DNA of 64,000 bases from Trichocoleus sp. FACHB-46. GTDB lineage: Bacteria; Cyanobacteriota; Cyanobacteriia; FACHB-46. Each line of letters opens with the position of its first letter. The first letter of the stretch is position 1. Made by a program: the position numbers and the translations under genes. The notes beneath the pieces are model-generated. The model worked only from the letters and a program-made list of their open reading frames with translations. It made no database searches and had not been told where the DNA came from. Positions 8,013-61,992 of the stretch are shown piece after piece. Where the stretch lies: the NCBI RefSeq assembly GCF_014695385.1, contig NZ_JACJOD010000022.1, positions 1 through 64,000 of the forward strand, written 5' to 3'.

Positions 8013-8687
8013 ATGAGTGAACGGGACGAACAACTGAGGCAACTAGTTGCGGCAGTCTGCCAAGCGACTCCTCAAACTTGGCAATGGCAACAAGCCATGA
8101 CGCTTTTGCTGACCCAAGTGCTGGCTCTGCCCGGTTTGGCGCGCTCTAGTCATCCCAACTATGCCGATGTCCTCAACGAAACGCTGAGCGAGTTGGGCGA
8201 TCGCCTCTGTAGCGAGTTTCAGCCCCAACCGAATTTGTCTTTTGAAACGAGTCTAGTCGCCTGGATCAATAAAAAACTCCGCTTAAAATATCGAGTCCAA
8301 GAACTCCACAGTCCTACTCAGCCAACTCCGTTACCTTTAGAAGTAGACCTGCCCGCCACGGCTGCTTGCACTATCTGGGAACTAGATGCCGAGATTGAAC
8401 AAAAACAGCAACAGCGCCGAGCTATGCGGGTGGGTCAGCAGTTGCAGCAATATGTCGAGCAAGACCCTGAAGCTAAATTGCGGCAATGCCATCCCGGCGC
8501 TTATCCTCAAGCTCATGCTCAATTCCTGACTCAACGCTTACTGTTGAAGTCGCCGCCAGACAAATTAACGGCGATCGCCCGTGAGCTAGAAGTGCCTTAC
8601 CAAGCGCTTTACTGGCATTGGAAACAGAAAGTTTTACCTTTGTTGCAAGAAATCGCCCAAAATTTCGGCTACCAACCCGATAAATAG
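8013..8687 (+). CDS. Sigma-70-like factor of module A
   Basis: 224 residues. An N-terminal helical part (about 45-100) contains a region-2-like pattern (acidic DVLNETL, then WINKKLRLKYR). A C-terminal helix-turn-helix-like segment (AIARELEVPYQALYWHWK, about 190-207) resembles sigma region 4. It is clearly paralogous to the protein at 57241-57888: both begin with a DxQLRQLV motif, share the domain order and end in a region-4-like helix. The family is loosely sigma-like, so promoter recognition is an inference. The stop is 2 nt before the DUF1822 gene, giving an operon sigma-like/DUF1822/CHAT. The start ATG at 8013 has only a weak ribosome-binding site. Confidence 0.75.
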   Translation: MSERDEQLRQLVAAVCQATPQTWQWQQAMTLLLTQVLALPGLARSSHPNYADVLNETLSELGDRLCSEFQPQPNLSFETSLVAWINKKLRLKYRVQELHSPTQPTPLPLEVDLPATAACTIWELDAEIEQKQQQRRAMRVGQQLQQYVEQDPEAKLRQCHPGAYPQAHAQFLTQRLLLKSPPDKLTAIARELEVPYQALYWHWKQKVLPLLQEIAQNFGYQPDK

Positions 8688-8689
8688 GT

Positions 8690-9733
8690 ATGAACAGCAC
8701 TCACACTCCACTCCTCACCGTTCCTCTCAGCCGCGATGCCCATGCTTGGGCGCGGAAATTCGCCGCTGAGCAAATCAATCCGCATCATGGCAAGCGGGTT
8801 TATCTCAATACTTTGGCGGTCTACGCCGTTCACACCTATCTCCGCTGGATTCGCATTGCCACAGATCTCAGTCAAGGAGACAGTTGGCAGCTTCATTTGC
8901 AAGCAGTACTAGATGTGGCTGATCTAGTGATTCCCGACTTGGGAAAGCTAGAGTGCCGCCCCATTCTACCTGAAGCCACTGTTTGCCACTTACCACCAGA
9001 AACATTAGACCAGCGCATTGGTTACGTTGGCGTGCAATTTCAGACGCAGCTCGATGCTGTGCGATTGGTGGGTTTTGTTCCGGCGATCGCCCCCTCACCT
9101 TCTCCTCCCACCCAACTGCCTCTCACCGAGTTCCAAGCTCTCGCTAACTTAGTAGCCCACTTGCATCACCTTCAAAGCATCCAAGCAACTTCTGCCCCAG
9201 AACCACACATTGCGGCTCCAACTGTACCCGTGAATTTAGGTCGATGGCTACAGAACACTTTTGAGGTAGGCTGGCAAACTTGGGAAGATTTGTTTGGCGG
9301 CGATCTACGCCCAGCTTTTAACTTTAGAGGCGATCGCTCTTCACCCGCTATTGCCTCTTCTGAAGCTAGCTTGGAGCCATTAACAGGTATACGACGAGGA
9401 AAGTTAATTGAGTTAGGAGGGCAACCCACTGCTCATGTAGCCGCCCTAGTTGTGGGAGTCACTCCTTTAGCAGATACTTCTGAGATTAAACATGAAGTGC
9501 TCTTGCGAGTTCATCCGACTCGCGAGCAACGGTTTCTCCCGCCAAATCTGCAACTCATCGTGTTGGATGCAGCAAATCAACCAGTTTTGGATGCTAGCGG
9601 TACTCCCTTAGCGGTGCATAGTCACCAAACCGATAACTTCATTCAGTTGTTACTCAGAGGTAAGACAGGCGAACAATTCCATGTCAGATTAGTCCTAGGA
9701 GATGTCAGCGTCACCGAAAAGTTTGTGATTTGA
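8690..9733 (+). CDS. DUF1822 family protein of module A
   Basis: 347 residues, no membrane segment or signal peptide. The conserved core is seen twice in this window: YLNTLAVYAVHTYL (about 43-56), VADLVIPDLGKLECR (about 74-88), RIGYVGVQ (about 108-115), and a C-terminal beta-rich block with LLRVHP, FLPPNLQL and an ending in EKFVI. The paralogue at 57934-59061 keeps all of these. DUF1822 proteins are largely cyanobacterial and are often found beside CHAT genes; their function is unknown. Packing (2 nt after the sigma-like gene, 0 nt before the CHAT gene) suggests obligate co-expression. A role as partner, inhibitor or substrate of the sigma-like or CHAT protein is my inference. Confidence 0.85.
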   Translation: MNSTHTPLLTVPLSRDAHAWARKFAAEQINPHHGKRVYLNTLAVYAVHTYLRWIRIATDLSQGDSWQLHLQAVLDVADLVIPDLGKLECRPILPEATVCHLPPETLDQRIGYVGVQFQTQLDAVRLVGFVPAIAPSPSPPTQLPLTEFQALANLVAHLHHLQSIQATSAPEPHIAAPTVPVNLGRWLQNTFEVGWQTWEDLFGGDLRPAFNFRGDRSSPAIASSEASLEPLTGIRRGKLIELGGQPTAHVAALVVGVTPLADTSEIKHEVLLRVHPTREQRFLPPNLQLIVLDAANQPVLDASGTPLAVHSHQTDNFIQLLLRGKTGEQFHVRLVLGDVSVTEKFVI

Positions 9734-12700
9734 ATGGCGATGGGGAAGCTAGTTATCTTCAAGCTGGGTGCAGGTGATTTTGAGCGGGGCTTTCCAGTAA
9801 CGTTGCAGATTGGTGCGGAAGGCGATCGCCCTAGTACAGAGATTACTGGATTTCTCCCGCCCAACCCCACCATCTTGGAAGACTACCAGCGCTGGCAAAC
9901 GGCTTATATCGCTTTGGGATGGCAATTCAACTTACGGATTGAAGCTCCCTCAGGGCAAGTGAACCGAGTCTCCTTCACCACACTCTGTCAAGATGCCGCC
10001 CAAGCTTTAAGTGCTAATCTCAATCATTGGCTCAGTGCTGACTTGTTTCGTCCTGTCCGTGAGAAGCTGCTGGAAAAACTGTCGCCTGCTGACCTGATTC
10101 GGCTGATTTTGCAGGTTGAAGATCTGCACTTGCGCCGCTTGCCTTGGCATCGGTGGGATTTTTTTGAGCGCTATCCTCAAGCAGAACTCGCGCTCAGTGC
10201 GCCTGGATACGAACGATTAGACCGACCTGCGATCGCCCGAGACAAGATCCGGATTTTGGCAGTGTTGGGCAATCGGACAGGAATCGACACAGAAGCCGAT
10301 CGCCAACTCCTGGCCCAACTTGCCCCCACGGCTGAAGTTGTCTTTTTGGTAGAACCTAACCGCCGGGAACTCAATCAACAACTCTGGGATTCCCAGGGCT
10401 GGGATATCCTCTTTTTTGCAGGACATAGTGCCAGTCAGTCGGATGGAGCCACAGGCCAAATCGCGATCAACCCTCAGCAACGTTTGGGGTTAGGAGACTT
10501 GAAACACGCCCTCCAGCAGGCGATCGCGCAGGGACTTCAATTAGCCATTTTCAACTCTTGTGATGGTTTGGGGTTAGCCCACGATCTACAGGCTTTGCAT
10601 ATCCCACAGATGATTGTGATGCGAGAGCCTGTGCCTGATTTGGTGGCTCAGGAGTTCTTGAAAGCCTTTCTCACGAGTTTTACTCAAGGGGCACCGCTCT
10701 ATCTGGCAGTGCGACAAGCGAGAGAACAGTTGCAAGGATTAGAAGATGAGTTTCCTTGCGCTAGTTGGCTCCCCGTTATTTGCCAAAATCCTGCCGAACT
10801 ACCAATGGTTTGGCAGCCCAAAACCCAATCGGTAGATCAGCGGGTTCAGTCAGTTCCTTTAGCCCAAATCCCACCTTGTCCTTATCGCGGCTTAGCAGCC
10901 TTTCAAGAGTCGGATACGCCGTTTTTCTTTGGGCGAGAAGCCTTTACCAACAAACTGCTGCGTCTAGCACCCACTCAACCTTTAATCGCGATCGTTGGGC
11001 CTTCTGGCAGCGGTAAATCTTCGGTGGTGGCAGCAGGGCTAATTCCTCGGTTGCGGGCGGAGGGAGATTGGTTGATTTGCAGCTTACGTCCTAGCCAACG
11101 GCCTTTTTTACGCTTAGCGGAGCAGTTCGTGACGCTGCTAGAGCCAGGTCGGAGTGAGACAGAACAACTGCTCGCCGCCAATCAACTGACTGCTGCCCTG
11201 CAACAAGGAACTGTAACTCTGCCCGATGTGATGGAGCAAATCCTTTACAAATCCCCCGCTGCCAGTCGATTACTGCTGTTGGTGGATCAATTTGAGGAAC
11301 TCTACACCCTCTGCCAACTGGATACAGAACGACAGCAGTTTCTCGATCAGCTCTTGGCTTTGCTGCCATCTGGGGCCGCCTGTACGTTGGTCTTGACGCT
11401 ACGAGCAGACTTCCTCGAATCAGCCCTAGCCTACCGACCTTTTGCTGATGCTTTGAGTCAGTTCGCTCCAGAACTGATCGGCCCTATGAGTGCTGCCGAC
11501 TTGGAAGCTGCGATCGCCCAGCCTGCCACCTTAATGAAAGTCAAAATTGCAGATGGTCTCACCATTCGGATTTTAGAGAGCATCAGTCAAGCTCCCGGAA
11601 ACCTGCCACTTCTAGAGTTTGCACTGACTCTACTGTGGGAGCGGCAACAACGAGGTGAGTTAACTCATGCTGCCTATGATGCGATCGGGGGAGTCAATCA
11701 AGCACTGGCCGTTTATGCGGAGCAGGTTTATGCAAAGTTGGCTACGGCTGAGCAAAAACAGGTGCAGCGTTTGTTGACGCAGTTGGTACGGCCTGGAGAA
11801 GGTGGTGTCGATATCCGCCGCTTAGCCACTCGCCGTGAGATTGGCGAAACTAACTGGCCCTTGGTCAGACGCTTGGCTGATGCTCGATTGGTGGTGACGA
11901 ATCGCAGTGCCGATGGCATAGAAACCGCAGAAGTGGTACATGAAGCCTTGATTCGGGAGTGGCAGCGGTTGCGCCAGTGGATGGAAGAGGTGCGGACGTT
12001 TCGGTTGTGGCAGGAGCGACTGCGATCGCTGATTCGGCAATGGCAAGTGAGCGATCGCGATGATGGAGCCTTGCTGCGGGGTGCCCCTTTACTGGAAGCC
12101 CAATTCTGGTTGCAAGAGCAGTCGGCAGATCTAAGTTCAGAGGAGCAAGACTTTATTCAGCGCAGTTTAGCTTACCAGCGGCAGGAACAGTCCGAGCGTT
12201 ATCGCAGCCGACGACGGGTGATTTTGGGTCTCAGTTTGGGTTTGCTTGGGTCGCTGGGATTGGGAGCGATCGCAGCTTGGCAATGGGAAAGGGCAGAAAC
12301 CCAAACCCACAATGCTCAGCTCAGTGCTCAAAGCTTTTCCTCGGAAGCCCTGCTGGCCTCTGACAAAGCTTTCGATGCCTTGTTAGAAGCTCTTCGAGCT
12401 GGTAATCAACTCCAACATGCGTCAGGCGTAACACCCACCACGCGCATACGAGTTGCCTCGACCCTCCTCCAAGCGCTCTACACAGTGCAAGAGCGCCAAC
12501 GACTGGAACAACACCGAGACTCGGTTACTAGTGTCAGCTTTAGCCCCAACGGTCAAACCCTAGCCTCAGCCAGTGCAGACCGAACCATTTTGTTGTGGCG
12601 GTTGGATGGCACCTTGCAAAAAACGATCTCCGGTCATGGCGATCGCGTTACGGCAGTGCAGTTTAGCCCCGATGGAAAACTCATCGCATCGAGCAGTGCT

Positions 12701-14365
12701 GACCAAACGGTGCGATTGTGGCAAGCCGATGGCAAGCCGTTACAAGTTATGCGTGGCCATGCCGCAGGAGTAACCAGTGTCAGTTTTAGCCCCGATAGCA
12801 AGACCCTCGCCTCAGCTACTAGCGACGGCACGATCAAACTGTGGCAACGCAATGGTACGCCCTTAAAAACTTGGACTGCTCAGGGAGATAGCATTCAGTC
12901 CCTGAGCTTTAGTCCCCAGGGTCAGATACTAGCCTCCGCCCACGGTGACGGCAGCATCAAAGTCTGGCGACTCAATGGCACCCTGCAACAAACCCTTAAA
13001 GGACATAAGGGCACAGTGAACATGGTGCGCTTCAGCCCCAATGGCCAACTGCTGGCTTCAGCTAGTAATGACCAAAAGATTCGCCTATGGGATGTGGATG
13101 GAGCAATGCTTCAGGTTTTGTCAGGGCACCGCGCCGCCGTAACAGCCATCAGTTTTAGCTCGGATGGGAAAAGGTTAGCTTCTGTGGGCGGCGATCGCAC
13201 CGTCAAACTCTGGAATCTCAAGGGCAAGCTGCTCCAAACTTTACCGGGTCATAGCTCACGGATTGAAACGGTCAGCTTTAGTCCGGATGGGCAACTACTC
13301 GCTTCTGGGAGTGGCGATCGCACCGTTAAACTCTGGCAACTCCAGCGCCGCGCTTCACAGACTATTGGCGATCGCAGCAATATCACCAGTCTGAGTCCCA
13401 GCAGTCGCCCGATTGCAGCAGGTAGCCGAGATGGTCTGATCCAACTTTGGCAGCCAAATGGTAAGCTCCTGCATCAATGGCAAGGGCACGCAGCTCCGGT
13501 TTACAGTATTCGCTTTAGCCCCAATGCCAAAACTCTGGCTTCGGCTAGCGGTGATGGCACGGTGAAGCTTTGGCGACAGGATGGCACTTTGCTGACCACC
13601 ATAACAGGGCATAACGCTGCGGTTTACGATGTCAGCTTCGGCCCCGATGGGCAAACATTAGCGTCTGCCAGCTTCGACCACACCGTGCGTCTATGGAACT
13701 CGGCAGGAAAACTCTTGCACATTCTATGGGGTCATCAAGATTTAGCTCTGACTGTTCGCTTTAGTCCGGATGGGCAAATTTTAGCTTCTGCGGGCAAAGA
13801 CAGCACGATTCGGCTATGGCGGAAAGATGGCTCGCCTTTGAAAACCCTAGAAGGCCATAATTCCAGCGTTCTAGCAATTAGCTTTAGCCCGAATGGTCAA
13901 ATGCTAGCTTCTGCCAGTGCCGACAATCTGATCAAGCTATGGAGTATCGATGGTAGATTGCTCAGCATTTTACGGGGCCATAGTAATACTGTCACCAGCA
14001 TCGGCTTCAGTGCCGATGGCCAAACCTTAGTATCTGGAAGTGCTGATAACACTGTGAAACTGTGGAGCTTGGATGGCACGCTGCTGAAGACGCTTCAGGG
14101 ATATAACGGAAGTGTCTTCGGAGCAACATTTGGCCTGGATAATCAACAAATTCTTTCCGTGAGTAATGGAAAAGTGGTGTTATGGAGCCTAGAACTAGAC
14201 TGGCTGATGCAACAAGGATGTGATTGGGTTAGTGATTATCTACGCAGTAACTCGACAGTACATGCTCGCGATCGCCAGTTATGTCCAGGTTCATCGCCGC
14301 CTGCCATCGGGCAACTCAAGTCAGAAATCAAAAAAGCTATCTTTTGGCGACGTTCAGGCCAATGA
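9734..14365 (+). CDS. CHAT protease-nSTAND NTPase-TM-14x WD40 protein
   Basis: 1543 residues. Seen in order: a DUF1822-module-specific N-terminal domain (1-~150); a CHAT caspase-like domain with FFAGHS (His231) and FNSCDG (Cys276); an nSTAND1-type NTPase beginning CPYRGL...FFGRE, with P-loop GPSGSGKSS at 422-430 and Walker B-like LLLVDQFEEL; a winged-helix-like region; one hydrophobic segment at about 829-850 preceded by RSRRR; then 14 WD40 repeats, enough for two seven-bladed propellers, and a conserved CDWVxDYL tail. STAND proteins are ligand-triggered switches; the CHAT is the likely proteolytic output. By the positive-inside rule the WD40 part would lie outside the cytoplasmic membrane. 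The ATG directly abuts the DUF1822 stop. Its 3' end overlaps the convergent SMR gene by 29 bp. Confidence 0.92.
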   Translation: MAMGKLVIFKLGAGDFERGFPVTLQIGAEGDRPSTEITGFLPPNPTILEDYQRWQTAYIALGWQFNLRIEAPSGQVNRVSFTTLCQDAAQALSANLNHWLSADLFRPVREKLLEKLSPADLIRLILQVEDLHLRRLPWHRWDFFERYPQAELALSAPGYERLDRPAIARDKIRILAVLGNRTGIDTEADRQLLAQLAPTAEVVFLVEPNRRELNQQLWDSQGWDILFFAGHSASQSDGATGQIAINPQQRLGLGDLKHALQQAIAQGLQLAIFNSCDGLGLAHDLQALHIPQMIVMREPVPDLVAQEFLKAFLTSFTQGAPLYLAVRQAREQLQGLEDEFPCASWLPVICQNPAELPMVWQPKTQSVDQRVQSVPLAQIPPCPYRGLAAFQESDTPFFFGREAFTNKLLRLAPTQPLIAIVGPSGSGKSSVVAAGLIPRLRAEGDWLICSLRPSQRPFLRLAEQFVTLLEPGRSETEQLLAANQLTAALQQGTVTLPDVMEQILYKSPAASRLLLLVDQFEELYTLCQLDTERQQFLDQLLALLPSGAACTLVLTLRADFLESALAYRPFADALSQFAPELIGPMSAADLEAAIAQPATLMKVKIADGLTIRILESISQAPGNLPLLEFALTLLWERQQRGELTHAAYDAIGGVNQALAVYAEQVYAKLATAEQKQVQRLLTQLVRPGEGGVDIRRLATRREIGETNWPLVRRLADARLVVTNRSADGIETAEVVHEALIREWQRLRQWMEEVRTFRLWQERLRSLIRQWQVSDRDDGALLRGAPLLEAQFWLQEQSADLSSEEQDFIQRSLAYQRQEQSERYRSRRRVILGLSLGLLGSLGLGAIAAWQWERAETQTHNAQLSAQSFSSEALLASDKAFDALLEALRAGNQLQHASGVTPTTRIRVASTLLQALYTVQERQRLEQHRDSVTSVSFSPNGQTLASASADRTILLWRLDGTLQKTISGHGDRVTAVQFSPDGKLIASSSADQTVRLWQADGKPLQVMRGHAAGVTSVSFSPDSKTLASATSDGTIKLWQRNGTPLKTWTAQGDSIQSLSFSPQGQILASAHGDGSIKVWRLNGTLQQTLKGHKGTVNMVRFSPNGQLLASASNDQKIRLWDVDGAMLQVLSGHRAAVTAISFSSDGKRLASVGGDRTVKLWNLKGKLLQTLPGHSSRIETVSFSPDGQLLASGSGDRTVKLWQLQRRASQTIGDRSNITSLSPSSRPIAAGSRDGLIQLWQPNGKLLHQWQGHAAPVYSIRFSPNAKTLASASGDGTVKLWRQDGTLLTTITGHNAAVYDVSFGPDGQTLASASFDHTVRLWNSAGKLLHILWGHQDLALTVRFSPDGQILASAGKDSTIRLWRKDGSPLKTLEGHNSSVLAISFSPNGQMLASASADNLIKLWSIDGRLLSILRGHSNTVTSIGFSADGQTLVSGSADNTVKLWSLDGTLLKTLQGYNGSVFGATFGLDNQQILSVSNGKVVLWSLELDWLMQQGCDWVSDYLRSNSTVHARDRQLCPGSSPPAIGQLKSEIKKAIFWRRSGQ

Positions 14366-52924: not shown

Positions 52925-53395
52925 TCAGCTCAACTTAGCGCTACATTCCAAAATCAAACGTTGGTTCTCGATTGAATAGGGTTGAATTTCTAAAGCGCGG
53001 CGAAAGGCGGGAATGGCCTCTCGGTATTCACCCAATGCCACATGGCAGAGCCCTATGCCATGAAGTGCGCCAAAATGAATCGGGTCGAGCTGCACTACTT
53101 GTTGGCAATCGGCCAGCGACTTACGATACTTGCCCTGAACGTAGTACAGCACTGCTCGTCGGTTCCATGCTTCGGCAAAATCGGGTAAGTCCTGAATCAG
53201 CTGGGTAAGCACCGCTTCTGCTTTGAGTTTTTCTCCGGTTTCTAACAACATCTGTGCCTGCCGAATTTGCTCTAGGCCCGCAACGCCCTTCTGTTCAAAC
53301 CAGCGTCGCCACAATTCCTGGGTAGCACGATTACGCACCTCTGGGTCTGCGTGCTTGAGGTCTTCAAGTAGCCGCTCAATTGATCGGTTATCCAT
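52925..53395 (-). CDS. TPR-repeat protein, 156 aa
   Basis: Two to three TPR units (about 60-145) with AEAWNRRAVLYYVQGKYRKSLADC and ALHGIGLCHVALGEYREAIPAFRRAL spacing, after a helical N-terminus (DPEVRNRATQELWRRWF). Soluble; works as an adaptor. No further function can be read. Monocistronic. Confidence 0.87.
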   Translation of the reverse strand: MDNRSIERLLEDLKHADPEVRNRATQELWRRWFEQKGVAGLEQIRQAQMLLETGEKLKAEAVLTQLIQDLPDFAEAWNRRAVLYYVQGKYRKSLADCQQVVQLDPIHFGALHGIGLCHVALGEYREAIPAFRRALEIQPYSIENQRLILECSAKLS

Positions 53396-53545: not shown

Positions 53546-54319
53546 ATGTCGTTACAACGGCGGGATCTAGGCTCTATGGCTCAAAAACATTTCAAACAAT
53601 TTATCTATTGGTTCGTAGGCGAGCGGGCGGGGCGTGTACTGACAGCCACTTGGTCTTGGCTCTGGGGCTTGCCTGTGGAGTCAGGCGGCAAGATTGCGGT
53701 GGAAGTGGCCCAGGAATCTTTGGAAACGATGCAAAAGTCGGTAGCGCAACTTACCCAATCAGTGGCGAGTCTAATGGCTGCTTACCAGCAAGCTAAGAGT
53801 ATGTACGAAAGTAGGCAGAAAGAATTTCGGCAAGCTGAACAACAAGCAATTTTGGCACAACAACAAGGCAATGCAGAAGCCGCCCGGATGGCGATGACGA
53901 AGGCCATTTTGCTCGATCGCTCGCTGCCTTCCTTAGCGAAAAAATTTGCCAAAGCGGAGACAGTGGTGCGAGCTGCCAAGGACAGACTTAACCGAGAACG
54001 CCAGAAGCTAGAAACTTACAAATTGGAGATGCAAAATCTCAAAGATTTGGCGGAGCTAAATGAGGCGCTGGCTGTGATCGATCAGGCTAATACTGAACTT
54101 GAAATTGGCTCAGCGCGATCGCAGTTTGCGACGGCTCAAACTTCTATAGAACGGCGACATCTCCAGATGACAGCACAGGCAGAGCTTTCAGAAAATCCAG
54201 CGGAGAAACTGACCGCGGATTTAGCTCAGATGACGCTTGACGATGAGATTGCTCAACGACTGCAACGACTGACAACTTCATCTTCATCCTCTCGCTCAGT
54301 CACTCCCTCAGATGCCTAA
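53546..54319 (+). CDS. PspA/IM30-like coiled-coil protein at head of module B
   Basis: 257 residues. From residue ~55 it is an almost continuous amphipathic coiled coil (AQESLETMQKSVAQLTQSVA; QAEQQAILAQQQGNAEAARM; KDRLNRERQKLETYKLEM) with weak resemblance to PspA/IM30 (Vipp1). A short hydrophobic/Trp segment near residues 18-45 could bind membrane. PspA/ESCRT-III-like proteins protect the membrane; that role is a guess. Its stop overlaps the first possible ATG (54312) of the binding-protein gene, so it belongs to the module B cluster. Confidence 0.6.
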   Translation: MSLQRRDLGSMAQKHFKQFIYWFVGERAGRVLTATWSWLWGLPVESGGKIAVEVAQESLETMQKSVAQLTQSVASLMAAYQQAKSMYESRQKEFRQAEQQAILAQQQGNAEAARMAMTKAILLDRSLPSLAKKFAKAETVVRAAKDRLNRERQKLETYKLEMQNLKDLAELNEALAVIDQANTELEIGSARSQFATAQTSIERRHLQMTAQAELSENPAEKLTADLAQMTLDDEIAQRLQRLTTSSSSSRSVTPSDA

Positions 54320-54332
54320 AGGAACTCCTACA

Positions 54333-55733
54333 ATGACCTCAACTCAAAAAAGCAATTCTACTTCTGTGCGTCCCAAAGCCAGTGTCCCGCCCATTGTGCT
54401 CTTGTTAATAGGTTTAGGAGTAGTCACAGGCATCTCCTGGCTGAAGGGAAATATCTTTTCTCCATCATCCCAGTCGCTCAATGCGGGTGCTCTTAAAGAC
54501 CGCATGAGTCTGGGGAATAAGCTCTTGATTGAGGCGGATGCTACACCAGAGAAACGCGCCGGAGTTGCAGCTTTTGCCAAAGGAGATTTTAAAGGCGCGA
54601 TCGCCCAATTTGAAGCTTCTCTCCGAAAGCGCCAAAATGACCCAGAAACGCTGATCTACTTGAACAATGCCCGTGTTGATGACACAGCGCTCCGAATTGC
54701 CGTGGGTGTTCCGATTGGGAGCAACCTGAATGTAGCTCAGGAAATGTTGCGCGGGGTCGCCCAAGCTCAGGATGAAGTGAATCGGAATGGTGGCATTGAT
54801 GGCGTGCCGCTACAAGTTGAAATTGTCAACGATGAAAATAATCCAGAAATTGTGAAGCAGGTGGCGACAGAGTTGGTAAAAGACTCGCGCATTCTTGCCG
54901 TAGTAGGACATAACGCCAGTAATGCTTCTTTGGTCGCTGCGCCGATCTACCAACAGGGACAACTGGTGATGGTGACTCCGACTAGCTTTGCCAATAATCT
55001 CTCTGGGTTTGGCAGTTATGTCTTCCGCGCTGTTCCCACAACTCGGTTAATGGCGGAACCTCTGGCTCAATATGTAGTTGGCACCACTCGTAAAACTAAT
55101 ATCGCTGTGTGCTATGACTCCCAAGCTCCAGACAATGTCTCCTTTAAAGATGAGTTTGTCGCAGCTTTGGTAGCTCAGGGAGGCAAACTCGTGCCAACCG
55201 TTTGTGACTTCTCTACTCCAAACTTTAACCCAACCACGGCGATCGCCCAAGCGGTTAGTAGTGGGGCTGAGGGGCTGTTAGTTTCTCCCCACATTGATCG
55301 GCTCGATCGCGCCATTGACTTAGCCAGAGCCAATCAGGGCAGGCTCGCATTATTGGGTAGCCCAACTTTATACACAATCAAAACGCCGCAGTCTGGTCAA
55401 GCCGATATGAATGGATTAGTTTTACCTGTGCCTTGGCATCCGACTGCTTTTGCCGACCATCCATTTGCAATCAATGCGAAGTATCGATGGGGAGGAGCGG
55501 TCAATTGGCGAACGGCAATGGCCTATGATGCCAGTCGTGCCATTATCAAGGGTTTAGAGCAGGATAAAACTCGGAGTGGCTTGCAGAACGTTTTGCGGAG
55601 TCCAGCGTTTTCGGCTTCTGGAGCCGGAGATCCGGTGAAGTTTCTGCCATCAGGCGATCGCCTGGGTCAAGCTGTTTTGGTGCAAATCCAGCCCAGTGCT
55701 TCTGGCTATGACTTTGCGCCACTCCGTCCATAA
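54333..55733 (+). CDS. Membrane-anchored type-1 periplasmic-binding protein (LivJ-like)
   Basis: 466 residues from the ATG at 54333, which has AAGGA 9 nt upstream; the ATG at 54312 would overlap the previous gene. N-terminal basic residues then one hydrophobic segment (about 18-36) give an N-in, C-out topology. A short TPR-like segment (AAFAKGDFKGAIAQFEASLR) and a Leu/Ile/Val-binding-protein fold follow (SNLNVAQEMLRGVAQAQDE, VVGHNASNASLVAAPIY and the ALLGSPTLY-like strand). The whole segment from the TPR to the end is homologous to residues ~380-800 of the CHAT protein at 59100-61508. There is no permease nearby, so it is a sensor, not part of a transporter. Confidence 0.85.
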   Translation: MTSTQKSNSTSVRPKASVPPIVLLLIGLGVVTGISWLKGNIFSPSSQSLNAGALKDRMSLGNKLLIEADATPEKRAGVAAFAKGDFKGAIAQFEASLRKRQNDPETLIYLNNARVDDTALRIAVGVPIGSNLNVAQEMLRGVAQAQDEVNRNGGIDGVPLQVEIVNDENNPEIVKQVATELVKDSRILAVVGHNASNASLVAAPIYQQGQLVMVTPTSFANNLSGFGSYVFRAVPTTRLMAEPLAQYVVGTTRKTNIAVCYDSQAPDNVSFKDEFVAALVAQGGKLVPTVCDFSTPNFNPTTAIAQAVSSGAEGLLVSPHIDRLDRAIDLARANQGRLALLGSPTLYTIKTPQSGQADMNGLVLPVPWHPTAFADHPFAINAKYRWGGAVNWRTAMAYDASRAIIKGLEQDKTRSGLQNVLRSPAFSASGAGDPVKFLPSGDRLGQAVLVQIQPSASGYDFAPLRP

Positions 55734-55775
55734 TCGCTTTGCTTCCTGACTTTCAACTTTGGTAGGTATCCGGAG

Positions 55776-57236
55776 ATGAATATTGAGCCAGCAGAACTTT
55801 ACGACCGGATTCAGAAATTTGCCTTAGATGATGTAGATGCCGAGCTGCCGTTTAGCAAACGATTGGCGAGGGAGAATGGCTGGACTGCTCAGTATACGCA
55901 GCGAGTGATTGCTGAGTACAAAAAGTTTGCATTTCTCACGGTAGTCGCTGGGCACCCAGTTAGCCCCTCCAAAGATGTGGACGAAGCATGGCATTTGCAT
56001 CTCCTTTATACACGCTCCTATTGGGGATACTTTTGTCCAGAGGTTTTACAAGTTTCTCTGTATCATGAGCTAACCAGAGAGGGTAGTAGCAGTCGCGAAA
56101 AGTTTGATAGCTGGTATACTCAAACGCTTTTCAGCTACGAACGTTGGTTTGGACAGGTTCCTCCTGCTGATATTTGGCCGCCAGTACCCAGGCAGATTCA
56201 TCAGGGTAAACAAGTTAGCAACAGAGATCAGTTCTGGAACTGGTCTCTCACAAAGCACCGAGCTAACCGACGCGCGATCGCAGTTTTATCATTTCTGTTC
56301 ACCCTAGCTATCACTAGTTTTACTCCGTCAATTGCGAGCAGCGTCGGTACGAATATCGCCACCAAAATTAGTAATCCGCTTGATTTTGCAGGAGTTGAAT
56401 TTCTAGATTTCTACTTTAGATTGCTTAGTGTGGTAACACTCTTTGCCTGTGGTTTACGATGGTATCTCTGCCAACCAGGTCATCAAACCTCTGTGCAGGC
56501 GGTACATCTCGATCCCTACGAGGCGGCTTACTTAGCAGGTGGTAAACGTCGGGCTGTAGAAGCGGCGATCGCACATTTGGTAGAGCGTAAACACCTGAGA
56601 TTGTTGATGACTGAACGAGCCTTTCGGAGAGGCCTCCCCCTGCCGAAAAATAGTCATTTTTTAGAGCAAGCAGTCGTGCGAGCAGTTTCTAAAGGTGGCA
56701 GCATTGAGAACGTGAGATCCCTAGTAGAACCTTTGACAAAGACTATCTACACAAATTTGCAAGAACTCGGCTTACTAGTCAAGCAAAGTCAAGCAGCAAG
56801 GACTCAGTGGTTACCCACGCTCTCTGTTGCTGCGGTACTGGTGTTAGGAATTAGCAAGATAGTGGTCGGTATTGCTCGGGATAAACCTGTAGGATTTCTC
56901 GTCATACTTTGTCTATTAACAACAGTCATCGCTGGCCTTCTATCCATTAAGCCTCATCGCAGTCGATATGGAGATTCTGTATTGGAGCAATTGCAGCGAC
57001 AACATGCCAAGTTGCAATACAATTCGCCAGCTACTCAACTAGCATTGGTGGTGGCTCTGTTTGGTAATACGGTTTTGGGAGACGCGGTTTTGGCTGATTT
57101 AGATCAGGTGTTCATGCCTCCTGCAAGCGTGGGTGGTGGAGATGGAGGCGGTGACGGCGGTGGAGATGGAGGCGGGGGTTGCGGGGGCGGTGACGGAGGC
57201 GGTGGGGGCTGTGGTGGCGGTGACGGCGGTGGTTAA
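55776..57236 (+). CDS. TIGR04222-type membrane protein with GRDP-like N-terminus and Gly/Asp/Cys-rich tail
   Basis: 486 residues. The N-terminal ~130 residues carry a glycine-rich-domain-protein-like motif (SKDVDEAWHLHLLYTRSYWG). Membrane helices lie at about 168-190, 205-225 and 345-395. The tail from about residue 450 is almost pure Gly with interspersed Asp and Cys (VGGGDGGGDGGGDGGGGC and similar), as in TIGR04222 proteins. The tail is encoded by a GC-rich microsatellite-like stretch, likely to vary in length. Located 4 nt before the sigma-like gene, so it is part of the module B operon. Function unknown. Confidence 0.8.
   Translation: MNIEPAELYDRIQKFALDDVDAELPFSKRLARENGWTAQYTQRVIAEYKKFAFLTVVAGHPVSPSKDVDEAWHLHLLYTRSYWGYFCPEVLQVSLYHELTREGSSSREKFDSWYTQTLFSYERWFGQVPPADIWPPVPRQIHQGKQVSNRDQFWNWSLTKHRANRRAIAVLSFLFTLAITSFTPSIASSVGTNIATKISNPLDFAGVEFLDFYFRLLSVVTLFACGLRWYLCQPGHQTSVQAVHLDPYEAAYLAGGKRRAVEAAIAHLVERKHLRLLMTERAFRRGLPLPKNSHFLEQAVVRAVSKGGSIENVRSLVEPLTKTIYTNLQELGLLVKQSQAARTQWLPTLSVAAVLVLGISKIVVGIARDKPVGFLVILCLLTTVIAGLLSIKPHRSRYGDSVLEQLQRQHAKLQYNSPATQLALVVALFGNTVLGDAVLADLDQVFMPPASVGGGDGGGDGGGDGGGGCGGGDGGGGGCGGGDGGG
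57120..57236 (+). repeat. GGN-rich low-complexity coding tract
   Basis: Imperfect repeats of GGTGGAGATGGAGGC-type units coding Gly-Gly-Asp-Gly runs. Strong purine bias and slippage-prone repetition next to the start of the sigma-like gene. Confidence 0.85.
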
Positions 57237-57240
57237 CCGC

Positions 57241-57888
57241 ATGGATGAAATCGATCAACAATTGCGCCAATTGGTGATGGCTGCTTGTCGCCAGCCGCGA
57301 GGGAGCCTGGAGCGCCAACGAGCCTTGAACCAACTGATCTGGCAAATTCAGCGCTCTGGCAAACTACTCCGAGGCGTTGGTGTCCCTGATTATGAAGATG
57401 CCCTCCAGCAAACATGGCTCTACTGCTGTCGCAACCTCTGCGAAGCGCTAACTGGCAACGCTTACGACCCAGAGCTAGCCAGTGTGATTACTTGGCTCAA
57501 TGCCTATCTCAAGCGACGGTTGAGCGATCGCCAGCGGGAAGTGTTTCAACAACAGGCAGAACGGGCATTTGGTCAGCTTGCAGAGACGGGGGAAGTAATT
57601 AATCCAATCGACACTCTTCCTGCTCCTGCCAATCCGCCACCGATCCTAGAAGAGATTCGGGAATGGGTAGAGCGAGAAGGCAGACAACTCCGGCGGATTC
57701 ATGTGCGCGATCGCCCCGATATTAACTGCGAAGTGCTGATTCTACGCCGCTTACCGCCAGAAACTGCTTGGGAAGCGCTATCTCAGGAGTTTGGTGTGGC
57801 GATCGCCACCTTGAGTAACTTTTATCAACGAGAGTGTTTTCCTCGCTTGCTCAAGTTTGGACAAACGCAAGGATATTTAGATTCATAG
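57241..57888 (+). CDS. Sigma-70-like factor of module B
   Basis: 215 residues from ATG 57241; a longer frame upstream belongs to the Gly-rich tail in another phase. It is a paralogue of 8013-8687: MDEIDQQLRQLV, then a region-2-like DYEDALQQTWLYCCRNL...ITWLNAYLKRRL, and a C-terminal HTH-like ALSQEFGVAIATLSNFYQRE. Same length class and same neighbours (DUF1822, CHAT) as in module A. Whether it binds RNA polymerase is inferred. Confidence 0.75.
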   Translation: MDEIDQQLRQLVMAACRQPRGSLERQRALNQLIWQIQRSGKLLRGVGVPDYEDALQQTWLYCCRNLCEALTGNAYDPELASVITWLNAYLKRRLSDRQREVFQQQAERAFGQLAETGEVINPIDTLPAPANPPPILEEIREWVEREGRQLRRIHVRDRPDINCEVLILRRLPPETAWEALSQEFGVAIATLSNFYQRECFPRLLKFGQTQGYLDS

Positions 57889-57933
57889 ATCGTTTCAGTA
57901 TCGTTTCGATTGCCGCATTCAACCTCCTTACCC

Positions 57934-59061
57934 ATGATTGACTCCACCCAAGACCTCACAATTACGCTGCCAATTCCTGCCTCTGCTCGCCAGGTGGCGC
58001 AACAATTTGCTCAAGCCCAGCCCACTCCAGAGAAAGCGGCTCAAGTTTATCGCAATACGCTGGCTGTGTTGCTGATGCGAGATTATTTACAAATGCTCGA
58101 CGTGCCTACCAATCTGGAGGCAAGCTATAGCTGGAATCCGATCGCTCGTCTCTGTGCAGATGTGGCTGACTTAGAAATAACGGGGCTAGGGCGTTTAGAA
58201 TGCCGTTCTATTCAAATGAGCGATCGCAGTTGCTCCATGCCGCCGGACGTATGGCAAGACCGGATTGGTTATGTGGTGGTGCAGTTAGATGAAGCCTGCC
58301 GTGCTGGCACCCTATTAGGATTTGTCCCCCGTGTTACTACTACCATGCTGCCACTCGCACAACTGCAATCTTTAGATGCCCTACTGTTGCGCTTGCATCA
58401 GCCTGCTCCTGTTGTTGTGCAATTGAGCCAATGGTTTAATCAAGTTTTTGAACCGCAATGGCAGGCGATCGCAGCTTGGCTAGAGAACCGAGACACCAAT
58501 TATGCGATGGCTTTTCGGGCTAAACAGGTAAAAGGCATGACCATCGATACGCCGGAAGCAGTGAAACACTTGGTTGAGCAATTGTATGCCAATCAGGCTG
58601 AGCAAGAACCAGAACGTTCTACACTAAGTACCGCTAATGTGGGTGTTATTCCTGCCTTGACCCAACTGCTGCAAACCACGCAAGACGAAGAAATCCGTTG
58701 GACTGCGGCTGAGCTATTGTGGACGCTTGATCCTGACCATCCCGCCGCCGGAGTCAGACGCATCACAGACTTAGGCATTCACCTAGCAGGCCATGCGATC
58801 GCCTTGATGGTGGCGATTCTGCCCAAACCAGAACAAAAAGTGGCGGTACTCTTGCGGGTTTACCCGATGGCAGGTCAAGCTTATTTACCACCCGAATTGC
58901 AATTGGTAGGCTTAGATGCTGGAGGGCAGGCATTTTTGACCACCCAAGCTAGACGCAAAGATGATTACATTCAGTTGAAGTTTACGGCTGACCTAGGAGA
59001 ACGATTTAGTGTGAGAATTGCTCTAGAGTCAGCTAGCATCGTGGAAAATTTTGTGGTTTAG
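57934..59061 (+). CDS. DUF1822 family protein of module B
   Basis: 375 residues from ATG 57934; a TTG at 57910 is the alternative. Conserved core as in module A: VYRNTLAVLLMRDYL, VADLEITGLGRLECRS, RIGYVVVQLDE and a C-terminal ALMVAILP...VLLRVYP...LPPELQLVGLD block ending ENFVV. It contains an extra HEAT-like segment (about 230-285, VIPALTQLLQTTQDEEIRWT) missing from module A. Function unknown; position between sigma-like and CHAT genes is the main clue. Confidence 0.85.
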   Translation: MIDSTQDLTITLPIPASARQVAQQFAQAQPTPEKAAQVYRNTLAVLLMRDYLQMLDVPTNLEASYSWNPIARLCADVADLEITGLGRLECRSIQMSDRSCSMPPDVWQDRIGYVVVQLDEACRAGTLLGFVPRVTTTMLPLAQLQSLDALLLRLHQPAPVVVQLSQWFNQVFEPQWQAIAAWLENRDTNYAMAFRAKQVKGMTIDTPEAVKHLVEQLYANQAEQEPERSTLSTANVGVIPALTQLLQTTQDEEIRWTAAELLWTLDPDHPAAGVRRITDLGIHLAGHAIALMVAILPKPEQKVAVLLRVYPMAGQAYLPPELQLVGLDAGGQAFLTTQARRKDDYIQLKFTADLGERFSVRIALESASIVENFVV

Positions 59062-59099
59062 CGTTGTTTGGCGGGCGATCGTAAGACGGAAAAAAGATT

Positions 59100-61508
59100 G
59101 TGAGTAAGTTGGTCGTCTTCAAGTTTGGTGAGGGCAGTTTTGCACAGGGATTTCCTGTGACGCTGCAAATTGGTGACGATGGCCAAGCATCTGCGATCGA
59201 GGTCAGAGGGAGATTTCCTGCTGCTCCAGATATTCCTCAGCTATATCAGCAGTGGCAACACCTCTACTATCGGCTGGGAGGCATGCGAATTGAAGTGCCC
59301 CCTGCCCAAGTCACCAATGTCTCCACCGTGACCGAGTGCGACCAAGCCGCCCAGAAATTACGAGCCAGCTTAATCCACTGGTGGAGCCAAGCCAGTGTGC
59401 GAGATTTGCGGGAGCAGGTCCAAGAAGAGGTACAGCGGCATGAGGCGGCGCGGGTAATTGTACAGACTCAAGATCTCCTCTTACGCAAGTTACCTTGGCA
59501 TCTGTGGGCCTTATTTGAACGTCGTCCTGGCGCTGAAATGGCGCTCTGTGCCGATTACGCACCTCCTTCCCCACCGCTGCACAGCCCAGTTAGAATTCTT
59601 GCGGTGTTGGGTAACAGTGAAGGTATTGATGTCCAAGCCGATCGCGCAGTTCTAGAGCAGTTGCCAGGAGCCAAGGTGACTTTGCTAGAAAAACCCTGTC
59701 GCCAGCAGCTCACTGAACAGTTGTGGAGCCAGCCGTGGGACATTTTGTTTTTTGCGGGACATAGTTCTAGTGAGGAACGTGGACAAATTCAAATTAATGA
59801 CACCGAAACCCTCTCCCTCGATCAGCTCCGTTATGGCTTAAAGGCAGCAGTTCGCAACAATTTGAAGCTGGCCATTTTCAATTCTTGCGATGGCTTAGAA
59901 CTGGCTCGACATCTGGCAGATTTAGGCATTCCGCAGGTAATTGTGATGCGAGAACCTGTGCCCGATCCAGTAGCTCAGGCATTCTTGCGCTATTTCCTGC
60001 AAGCTTTTGCCCAGGGTCAGTCGCTATATCTATCTGTGCGTCAAGCGAGAGAACAGCTACAAGGAATGGAAGGAGACTTCCCTTGTGCTTCTTGGTTGCC
60101 TGTGCTCTGCCAAAATCCAGTGGAGTCTCCTTTGGCCTGGCCTGTGGTTAGAAAACCCTATGGTCTTGCCAAAACATTGTTTGGAGGGGCGATCGCGGCT
60201 CTCTGCACAGGCATGTTACAGCCGACTCCCCCCTTGCCAACACCCTGGGCCAACCGCATCAGCTTGGGCGACAAGATTTTAGTCCGGGCGAGCGCCACCC
60301 CCACTAAAGAAGCAGGCGTTAAAGCATTCCGTACCAAACAATTCAGTTCGGCAGCGCAGCAGTTTCAAGCCTCGCTGCAGCAACAACATAACGATCCAGA
60401 AACCTTAATCTACTTAAATAATGCTCGCATCGCTAACCAAGCAGCAGTTAGAGTTGCAGTTAGCGTGCCGATTGGTAGCAACCTGAATGTCGCTCAGGAG
60501 ATTCTTCGGGGAGTGGCTCAAGCTCAGGATGAGATTAATCGTCAAGGAGGTCTGCGGGGACAACTCTTGCAGGTGGCGATCGCGGATGATGAGAACCAAC
60601 CAGCGATCGCCCGTCAGATTGCCACAGCACTAGTGAAGGATACTCAGACCATAGCTGTGGTGGGACATAACGCCAGTGATGCTTCTGTGGCAGCCGCTCC
60701 CATTTATGACGAGGGAGAACTGGTGATGCTGTCCCCCACTAGTTTTTCTGACAAACTCTCCTCTAGCGGCAAATATATTTTTCGCATGGTGCCCAGCATT
60801 CGCTTCATTGCCGATGCCTTGGCCCGCTACACCATCAAAAATGACTATAAAGTCAAAATTGCTATCTGCTCTGACACAGCGGCTGTGGATAATGAATCTT
60901 TTCGCAATCAATTTACGGCAGCGGTTTTTGCCGATGGGGGGCAGTTTATCAATGTTCCGTGTGACTTCTCCGCTTCTGACTTTAATGCTGAAACCGCGAT
61001 CGCCACAATCATCAGTAGCGGAGCCGATAGTATTCTCCTCGCTCCCCATGTCGATCGCATCAATAAAGCTGTGGAGATGGCACGCGCCAACCAAGGGCGT
61101 TTAACTTTATTCGGCAGCCCAACGCTATATACTTCCCAAACCCTCCAGGCTGGACAGAACACAGTTAATGGCTTGGTGTTGCCTGTGCCTTGGCATCCTA
61201 CACCACGGGCTAAACACTCTTTTCTCCGCGAAGCTCAGCAACTTTGGGGCGGCTCGGTAAACTGGCGTACTGCTATGTCCTACGATGCAACTAAAACCGT
61301 ATACATGGGATTACAACATCAACAGACTCGCAAAGGTTTAAGAGATACCCTCAGAAGCCCAGATTTTCTACTGGAGGGAGCTAGCGGCGTTATTCAATTC
61401 CTTCCCTCTGGGGAGCGCCGAATTGTGCCAAGCATTGGGGTATTAGTAAAAGTACAACCTAGTACCAAAGCTCCTCTGCGTTACGAGTTTGCCCTTCTCA
61501 AGCCATAA
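59100..61508 (+). CDS. CHAT protease-TM-periplasmic-binding domain fusion
   Basis: 802 residues, GTG start. Residues 1-~150 match the module-specific N-terminal domain of the CHAT/WD40 protein (KLVVFKFGEGSFAQGFPVTL). A CHAT domain follows with FFAGHS (His221) and FNSCDG (Cys263). A single hydrophobic segment at about 354-373, with Arg/Lys on its N side, predicts CHAT inside and the rest outside. Then comes a TPR-like linker and a full type-1 periplasmic-binding domain (about 440-800) with SNLNVAQEILRGVAQAQDE and VVGHNASDASVAAAPIY. This makes it a one-piece receptor-protease. The binding part duplicates the free protein at 54333-55733. No NTPase is present, unlike module A. Confidence 0.92.
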   Translation: MSKLVVFKFGEGSFAQGFPVTLQIGDDGQASAIEVRGRFPAAPDIPQLYQQWQHLYYRLGGMRIEVPPAQVTNVSTVTECDQAAQKLRASLIHWWSQASVRDLREQVQEEVQRHEAARVIVQTQDLLLRKLPWHLWALFERRPGAEMALCADYAPPSPPLHSPVRILAVLGNSEGIDVQADRAVLEQLPGAKVTLLEKPCRQQLTEQLWSQPWDILFFAGHSSSEERGQIQINDTETLSLDQLRYGLKAAVRNNLKLAIFNSCDGLELARHLADLGIPQVIVMREPVPDPVAQAFLRYFLQAFAQGQSLYLSVRQAREQLQGMEGDFPCASWLPVLCQNPVESPLAWPVVRKPYGLAKTLFGGAIAALCTGMLQPTPPLPTPWANRISLGDKILVRASATPTKEAGVKAFRTKQFSSAAQQFQASLQQQHNDPETLIYLNNARIANQAAVRVAVSVPIGSNLNVAQEILRGVAQAQDEINRQGGLRGQLLQVAIADDENQPAIARQIATALVKDTQTIAVVGHNASDASVAAAPIYDEGELVMLSPTSFSDKLSSSGKYIFRMVPSIRFIADALARYTIKNDYKVKIAICSDTAAVDNESFRNQFTAAVFADGGQFINVPCDFSASDFNAETAIATIISSGADSILLAPHVDRINKAVEMARANQGRLTLFGSPTLYTSQTLQAGQNTVNGLVLPVPWHPTPRAKHSFLREAQQLWGGSVNWRTAMSYDATKTVYMGLQHQQTRKGLRDTLRSPDFLLEGASGVIQFLPSGERRIVPSIGVLVKVQPSTKAPLRYEFALLKP

Positions 61509-61518
61509 CTTCCAAATA

Positions 61519-61992
61519 CTAATTGCTGCTTGGGAATGACCTGCGATCGCGGTAGAAACGTTGAATCAACAGAATTAGTGCTGCAAGGTAGGCCACAAGA
61601 GCTGCGATGTAACCGATGCCGAATTGAGCACCAAATGAGTGCATCGTGACCGCAAATATCGTTAAATGGATCAGCCCAAACAGAGCGGCAACGATGCCAA
61701 GGACAGGCTTGTATGCTCCCAAGGGGATCAGCAACCCTCCCAGCACGACAATCCAGTTAGGAATGGCATAAATTCCCAATCGGAATCCTCCTTGCCAAGC
61801 CGTGAATGTATCACTAGAACCAGCAAAGGCACCACTAGCCAGTCCTAGCTTTGCAGGTAAGTTCAAGTTCTCAGGTGGAGGGATATTAGGATCTATGAGT
61901 GCATCAGATTGTAACGAAGCCCAAGGCAAAAAGGAAGCCGCTAAAATCACTGCACTCAGCAAGAGTAAAGTTGTTAGCACTGTAAATCGCAT
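61519..61992 (-). CDS. Small membrane protein, 157 aa
   Basis: Four hydrophobic segments (about 5-25, 65-92, 94-118, 124-147) and a periplasmic-looking loop DPNIPPPENLNLPAKLG after the first. No family recognised. Convergent with the module B CHAT gene, only 10 nt apart. Confidence 0.75.
   Translation of the reverse strand: MRFTVLTTLLLLSAVILAASFLPWASLQSDALIDPNIPPPENLNLPAKLGLASGAFAGSSDTFTAWQGGFRLGIYAIPNWIVVLGGLLIPLGAYKPVLGIVAALFGLIHLTIFAVTMHSFGAQFGIGYIAALVAYLAALILLIQRFYRDRRSFPSSN

Follow-up and report, generated by a model that had tools for sequence, protein, structure and literature searches.

A CHAT protease joined to a LivJ-type binding domain as a sensor variant of EACC2-type signalling in cyanobacteria

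A six-gene cluster in the cyanobacterium Trichocoleus sp. FACHB-46 ends in a gene for a predicted CHAT protease whose C-terminal half is a periplasmic-binding protein (PBP) domain. Compared with the text of Kaur et al. (2021; PMC8195603), the operon represents a genuine and widely distributed variant, on the sensor side, of the EACC2 signalling system described there, and not a new kind of system. In that text, EACC2-caspase proteins have variable C-termini, extracellular sensors among them, with ECF sigma and DUF1822 neighbours; a single passage proposes autopeptidase activation with a sigma output.

The six-gene cluster and its receptor protease

The window, that is, the whole stretch of 64,000 nucleotides analysed here, is part of one contig of an assembly of 6.56 Mb in 92 contigs. 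As the preliminary description had it, six tightly spaced ORFs lie on the + strand at 53546-61508, with successive gaps of -8, 42, 4, 21 and 38 bases, and they include genes for a PspA-like and a TIGR04222 protein. A divergent gene (52925-53395, - strand) precedes them and a convergent gene (61519-61992, - strand) follows, so the six fit one operon, and we infer a single transcription unit. A promoter and terminator scan gave no more sites than shuffled sequences. Domain calls, from Pfam and NCBIfam profile searches, are included in the following list.

53546-54319, + strand: gene 1, coiled-coil protein of 257 aa resembling PspA/IM30, probably a partner at the membrane surface (PspA_IM30, 34.3 bits against a cut-off of 33.9)
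54312-55733, + strand: gene 2, membrane-anchored binding protein with N-terminal transmembrane helix (TM), helical hairpin and LivJ-type PBP, and no enzyme domain (Peripla_BP_6, 115.6 bits)
55776-57236, + strand: gene 3, membrane protein of the TIGR04222 family, in which a Gly/Cys-rich tail ends a chain that starts with a domain of 190 aa (TIGR04222, 154.5 bits)
about 57241-57888, + strand: gene 4, ECF-sigma-like protein, 215 aa (from matches of its relatives)
57910-59061, + strand: gene 5, DUF1822 protein, 383 aa (DUF1822, 304 bits)
59100-61508, + strand: gene 6, putative receptor protease, 802 aa (EACC2-like domain, CHAT, marginal TM, helical hairpin, LivJ-type PBP)
59760-59762, + strand: predicted catalytic His221 codon of gene 6 (invariant in 44/44 aligned fusions)
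59886-59888, + strand: predicted catalytic Cys263 codon of gene 6 (invariant in 44/44 aligned fusions)
60162-60218, + strand: candidate transmembrane stretch GLAKTLFGGAIAALCTGML of gene 6, residues 355-373 (KD 1.43, marginal)

The domain search proposed earlier for 59100-61508 found both expected parts, CHAT at residues 178-325 (66.7 bits) and Peripla_BP_6 at residues 450-770 (100.5 bits). The His221/Cys263 dyad had been placed correctly and does not vary among the aligned CHAT-PBP fusions, and the domain after the linker is indeed of LivJ type. Gene 6 is thus predicted to encode a CHAT protease. In the AF2 model (pLDDT 89.7) the first 150 residues fold as an alpha+beta domain, with strands at 3-9, 17-26 and 33-39 and helices at 44-59, 77-95 and 98-110 ahead of CHAT; as modelled, this domain fits the published description of EACC2. 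The N-terminal half (residues 1-349) is common to fusion and non-fusion CHAT loci. A helical hairpin at about residues 400-444 stands ahead of the PBP, and is also present in the gene 2 product. The CHAT half had no significant match among PDB sequences. The model of HetF, a cyanobacterial CHAT protein, aligns with residues 186-327 (NF045509, E 1.3e-12), but the N- and C-terminal parts differ, and 46.9 bits against a cut-off of 1200 rules out a HetF orthologue.

A single TM after CHAT, with basic residues on its N side, had been proposed. For the family this holds well: all fusions but L081 and L082 (41 of 43) have their most hydrophobic 19-mer within the CHAT-PBP linker, usually at a KD of about 1.8 or higher and with basic residues mostly N-side of it. 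The window copy itself is marginal, and its stretch is among the weakest of the 43. Its best 19-mer, residues 355-373, has basic residues N-side, a KD of 1.43 and a hydrophobic core of only about 15 residues, and residues 353-380 are unfolded in the AF2 model. These values would suit a fusion that is not inserted in the membrane, with its PBP in the cytoplasm and the anchored gene 2 protein as the real membrane sensor. We consider this very unlikely, given the clear TMs of most relatives and the fact that the stretch is still the maximum of the window protein; by this kinship a TM in the window copy is likely. As an architecture, the one-piece transmembrane sensor with a caspase-like output, probably with CHAT on the inner side and the PBP on the outer, is conserved in about 60 cyanobacterial proteins, while its membrane helix is marginal in the window.

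As for the PBP half, its model aligns best with LivK (3td9; Z 38.8 over 337 residues, rmsd 2.9), and also with LivJ, AmiC and urea-binding proteins (Z 33-39 for LivK, LivJ and AmiC). Foldseek also matched it to class C GPCR ligand-binding domains. All of these share the Venus-flytrap fold; here, unlike in them, the fold is tethered to a protease. AmiC is a regulator with a PBP fold, and the amino-acid contacts of LivJ include Ser79, Thr102 and Glu226. Mapped through HMM alignments with 3td9 and 4gnr, a sequence-based and approximate procedure, these correspond to positions 526, 549 and 674. The serine is kept (S526, 43/44 fusions). Position 549 is Phe in the window copy, with T in 22/44 fusions, and position 674 is Pro, with Asp in 7/44. 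Two of the three contact positions checked are not kept, and the amino-acid-like ligand suggested earlier is therefore not supported for the window copy.

Neighbouring genes and distribution of the fusion

We compared the neighbours of 56 fusion loci with those of 39 other CHAT loci; the Fisher p-values treat related loci as independent. DUF1822 is near 48 of the 56 fusion loci and 34 of the 39 others. A sigma-like gene is near at least 28/56 and at least 15/39, respectively, counts that are lower bounds owing to the BLAST cut-off and to contig ends. These two genes hence belong to the CHAT system generally; they recur next to the fusions, but are neither found at every locus nor specific to them. 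In contrast, PspA-like relatives (12/56 against 0/39, p 0.0012), a separate PBP (13/56 against 1/39, p 0.0065) and TIGR04222 relatives (12/56 against 0/39, p 0.0012) go with the PBP form.

The gene 2 product had been described as a free binding protein. It has its own N-terminal TM (residues 23-41, KD 2.18), which makes it membrane-anchored and rules out a soluble PBP. Its PBP is 57% identical to the fused PBP of gene 6, so that it is the receptor half in a form that is anchored by itself and lacks the protease. The PspA assignment of gene 1 is only just above the gathering score. This protein and its relatives carry a Trp-rich N-terminal motif, WLWG.P, with W36, W38 and W40 invariant; we know of no such motif in PspA, and it could be a membrane-contact element. 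At one locus (L045:2824-9524) the PspA and anchored-PBP pair occurs twice with no CHAT gene, beside a kinase-PBP fusion (11292-13739), which makes the pair a module in its own right. In gene 3, residues 1-190 contain a DEAWHLH motif, and relatives of this part are separate ORFs upstream of the fusions in L035, L036 and L038. We take this domain to recall the plant glycine-rich domain proteins.

Gene 4 itself matched no sigma model and no Pfam or NCBIfam family, and had no significant match among PDB sequences. Among its relatives, 12/35 match TIGR02937 (sigma70-ECF, best 1.6e-7), with those shown singly below the curated cut-off, and 4/35 contain Pfam Sigma70_r2. Two relatives weakly match the type III-E CASP-sigma model NF041236 (1.4e-4 and 5.4e-4, far below the cut-off), and the Planktothrix relative is annotated as sigma-70. 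Through these relatives gene 4 is classed as putatively ECF-sigma-like.

In the AF2 model of the DUF1822 protein (pLDDT 87.7), an alpha/beta domain at the N terminus is followed by a helical middle part and, last, by a beta-sandwich. In the fold search the C-terminal sandwich (about 290-383) resembles Ig-like domains, with Z up to 8.5; there was no confident whole-protein match, and the rest of the protein was barely covered. Given this three-part model, the label “TPR protein” in the text of Kaur et al. would fit the middle at most. No significant match was found among PDB sequences, nor did DUF1822 members match NCBIfam models at E 0.01, Csx30 included, a result that leaves room for distant kinship.

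In terms of distribution, about 60 CHAT-PBP fusion relatives were found across cyanobacteria. Among 386 genomes surveyed in the phylum there were full-length fusions at 46-49% identity (G245, G064, G048, G231 and G133) and more distant ones (G095, G237 and G118, with G197 recognised on reading its stretch). A scan of GTDB contigs added 55 further ORFs with both halves, and one fusion is on a Planktothrix plasmid. The preliminary description had allowed for a fusion missing from all relatives; with about 60 of them, in many genomes and collections, an assembly error or chance fusion is ruled out.

In the tree of the CHAT half, 65 of 112 members carry the PBP, in a set that includes a few near-duplicate genomes. 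Six changes of the PBP label are needed, five of them forced by well-supported branches, so PBP and CHAT were joined or parted several times. The plasmid copy (L001, Planktothrix pseudagardhii plasmid p1) belongs to an operon that is complete except for TIGR04222, near the plasmid end, next to tyrosine recombinase/integrase and toxin-antitoxin genes. At another locus (L050:7066-10817) the gene is split into a first ORF of 303 aa and a second of 934 aa that contains two PBP stretches, a probable frameshift or decay.

Exchangeable receptors and tandem arrays

The TM-hairpin-PBP half also occurs fused to Peptidase_C14 in L048, L049 and L063, to protein kinases in L047, L064 and L045, and to an AAA_35 domain in L047. 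It is thus a plug-in shared by caspase, kinase, AAA and CHAT effectors. The CHAT half, in turn, has PBP, CHASE2, pentapeptide or nSTAND/WD40 parts as C-terminal partners. A second cluster of the window (module A, 8013-14365) contains sigma-like, DUF1822 and CHAT-nSTAND1-WD40 genes, and so combines this output cassette with another kind of sensor.

Four genomes have tandem CHAT-PBP genes: L083:4936-16656 (four genes), L103:892-11469 (three), L086:5148-11607 (two) and L099:4025-10663 (two). Between the slot-1 gene and its neighbours, identity is 66-83% in CHAT and 46-75% in the EACC2-like part, drops sharply at the linker and is 24-29% in the PBPs. The two PBP types within the arrays are unrelated to each other (24-31% identity overall), while each type is conserved between genomes; the slot-1 PBPs of the four, at 52-89% identity, group as a separate clade (SH-aLRT 100). 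Neighbouring N-halves in L086 share 62% identity, against 33-38% with N-halves in the other three genomes. It looks as though the protease halves had been homogenised while the two types of receptor stayed distinct, and gene conversion is the likely cause of the alike protease halves.

Furthermore, seven loci (L067, L070, L071, L076, L077, L078 and L090) encode CHAT proteins of about 1230-1250 aa with two PBP domains per chain, and the first and second PBPs group separately. It is conceivable, though unlikely, that the CHAT-PBP systems as a whole are multi-receptor protease complexes, in which one CHAT/DUF1822/sigma output would serve two different Venus-flytrap receptors, paired like heteromeric class C GPCRs. 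The second receptor could be supplied by the anchored PBP, by a tandem gene or by a two-PBP chain. The array pattern, with CHAT halves kept alike by gene conversion and PBP types kept apart, would then look like a sign that the protease halves have to assemble with one another. Two PBPs in every system are ruled out by the many fusion loci that have complete flanks and a single PBP.

Known systems and a possible mechanism

The architecture had been presented as one with no known description. The parent EACC2 system is published, at least in the text of PMC8195603, and cyanobacterial caspase-PBP fusions were catalogued in 2010 and 2021 (PMC2853523, PMC8283722). EACC2-caspase systems share with the present cluster a constant N-terminal alpha+beta and caspase-like part, a variable C-terminus, which in those systems may be an extracellular sensor with a TM, and DUF1822 and ECF-sigma or, here, ECF-sigma-like genes. 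That text names CHASE2, PDZ, kinase, STAND and “small-molecule-binding domains”, not explicitly a PBP, and the PspA, second PBP and TIGR04222 genes are unmentioned in it. The catalogued (ortho/meta)caspases with ANF_receptor/Peripla_BP_6 have a homologous receptor half (L048, L049 and L063). They differ in having Peptidase_C14 instead of CHAT, and the stretches fetched for them contain no DUF1822 or sigma-like relative. Across the literature text covered, in part and figures aside, CHAT-PBP fusions with PspA and a second PBP are not named.

Type III-E CASP offers an analogy for an output. There the CHAT protease Csx29 (TPR-CHAT) cleaves Csx30, an inhibitor of a sigma factor (PMC10028731). Both systems have a CHAT protease, a neighbour as possible substrate and an RpoE-like sigma, putative in the cluster; CASP, unlike the cluster, is RNA-guided and without a PBP, and DUF1822 and Csx30 have no sequence match. 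This cleavage, with the weak CASP-sigma matches of the gene 4 relatives, leads to the mechanism that we prefer, although we would give it somewhat less than an even chance: a CHAT signalling operon of the EACC2 type, with a Venus-flytrap (LivJ-fold) receptor as its variable sensor. The PBP, held by a single TM, would be on the outer side of the inner membrane, next to the anchored second PBP. A small ligand would close the PBP, perhaps jointly with the second one, and closure would act through the TM to activate the cytoplasmic CHAT protease. By analogy with Csx29 and Csx30, the protease might then cut either itself or a neighbour, of which DUF1822 is the most probable, and thereby release the ECF-like sigma. 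The role of DUF1822 as sigma inhibitor is a guess from gene order. The freed sigma might start a membrane-stress or defence response, with PspA and TIGR04222 acting at the membrane. The recurrence of DUF1822 and sigma while the C-terminus varies (CHASE2, nSTAND/WD40, PBP) supports this mechanism. So do the two Pfam-assigned halves, the invariant dyad, the hydrophobic linker of the family, the LivK alignment, the sigma-model matches of the gene 4 relatives, and the occurrence of PspA and TIGR04222 relatives, among the CHAT loci compared, at those of PBP type alone. It is weakened by the half of fusion loci near which no sigma-like gene was found, by the missing sigma match of gene 4, by the marginal TM and by the lack of a match of DUF1822 to Csx30 or to a solved structure in sequence searches.

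Two other readings compete with this sigma-release mechanism. A cell-suicide or defence receptor of the sort proposed for EACC2 systems, in which CHAT responds to the signal by processing itself or by degrading proteins broadly, the variable domain recognises a molecule from an invader or from stress and the sigma output is secondary, seems to us rather unlikely. Its appeal comes from the autopeptidase activation proposed in the text of Kaur et al., from the swapping of the receptor half among caspase, kinase, AAA and CHAT effectors, and from the integrase and toxin-antitoxin genes beside the plasmid copy. The conservation of PBP halves between genomes, as in slot 1, is unlike a fast-changing pathogen detector, and PADLOC gave the module B genes only marginal matches to other models (E 0.003-0.006), none of them a real defence match. 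Less probable again is a nutrient or metabolite regulator without a conflict role, whose PBP pair would sense an uptake substrate while the operon adjusts transport or membrane physiology. The LivJ/AmiC-like fold, AmiC being itself a regulator, and the membrane adaptation suggested by the PspA and TIGR04222 genes agree with such a role; the operon has no transporter gene, one relative is plasmid-borne, and the same CHAT half also occurs with nSTAND-WD40 and CHASE2, all of which speak against it.

Judged against the published text, PspA and a second anchored PBP together with a CHAT-PBP protein are a new form within the known EACC2-type kind. The sigma-release model is directly testable, since its parts are few and adjacent. 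The tandem arrays are natural pairs of the same protease with different receptors, useful for ligand finding. Lastly, if the model is true, the operon would carry the signal of an external small molecule over a short path, by way of a single membrane helix, to a caspase-like protease and on to a sigma factor, and would connect a receptor unrelated to CRISPR with the scheme known from Csx29, Csx30 and sigma in type III-E CRISPR.
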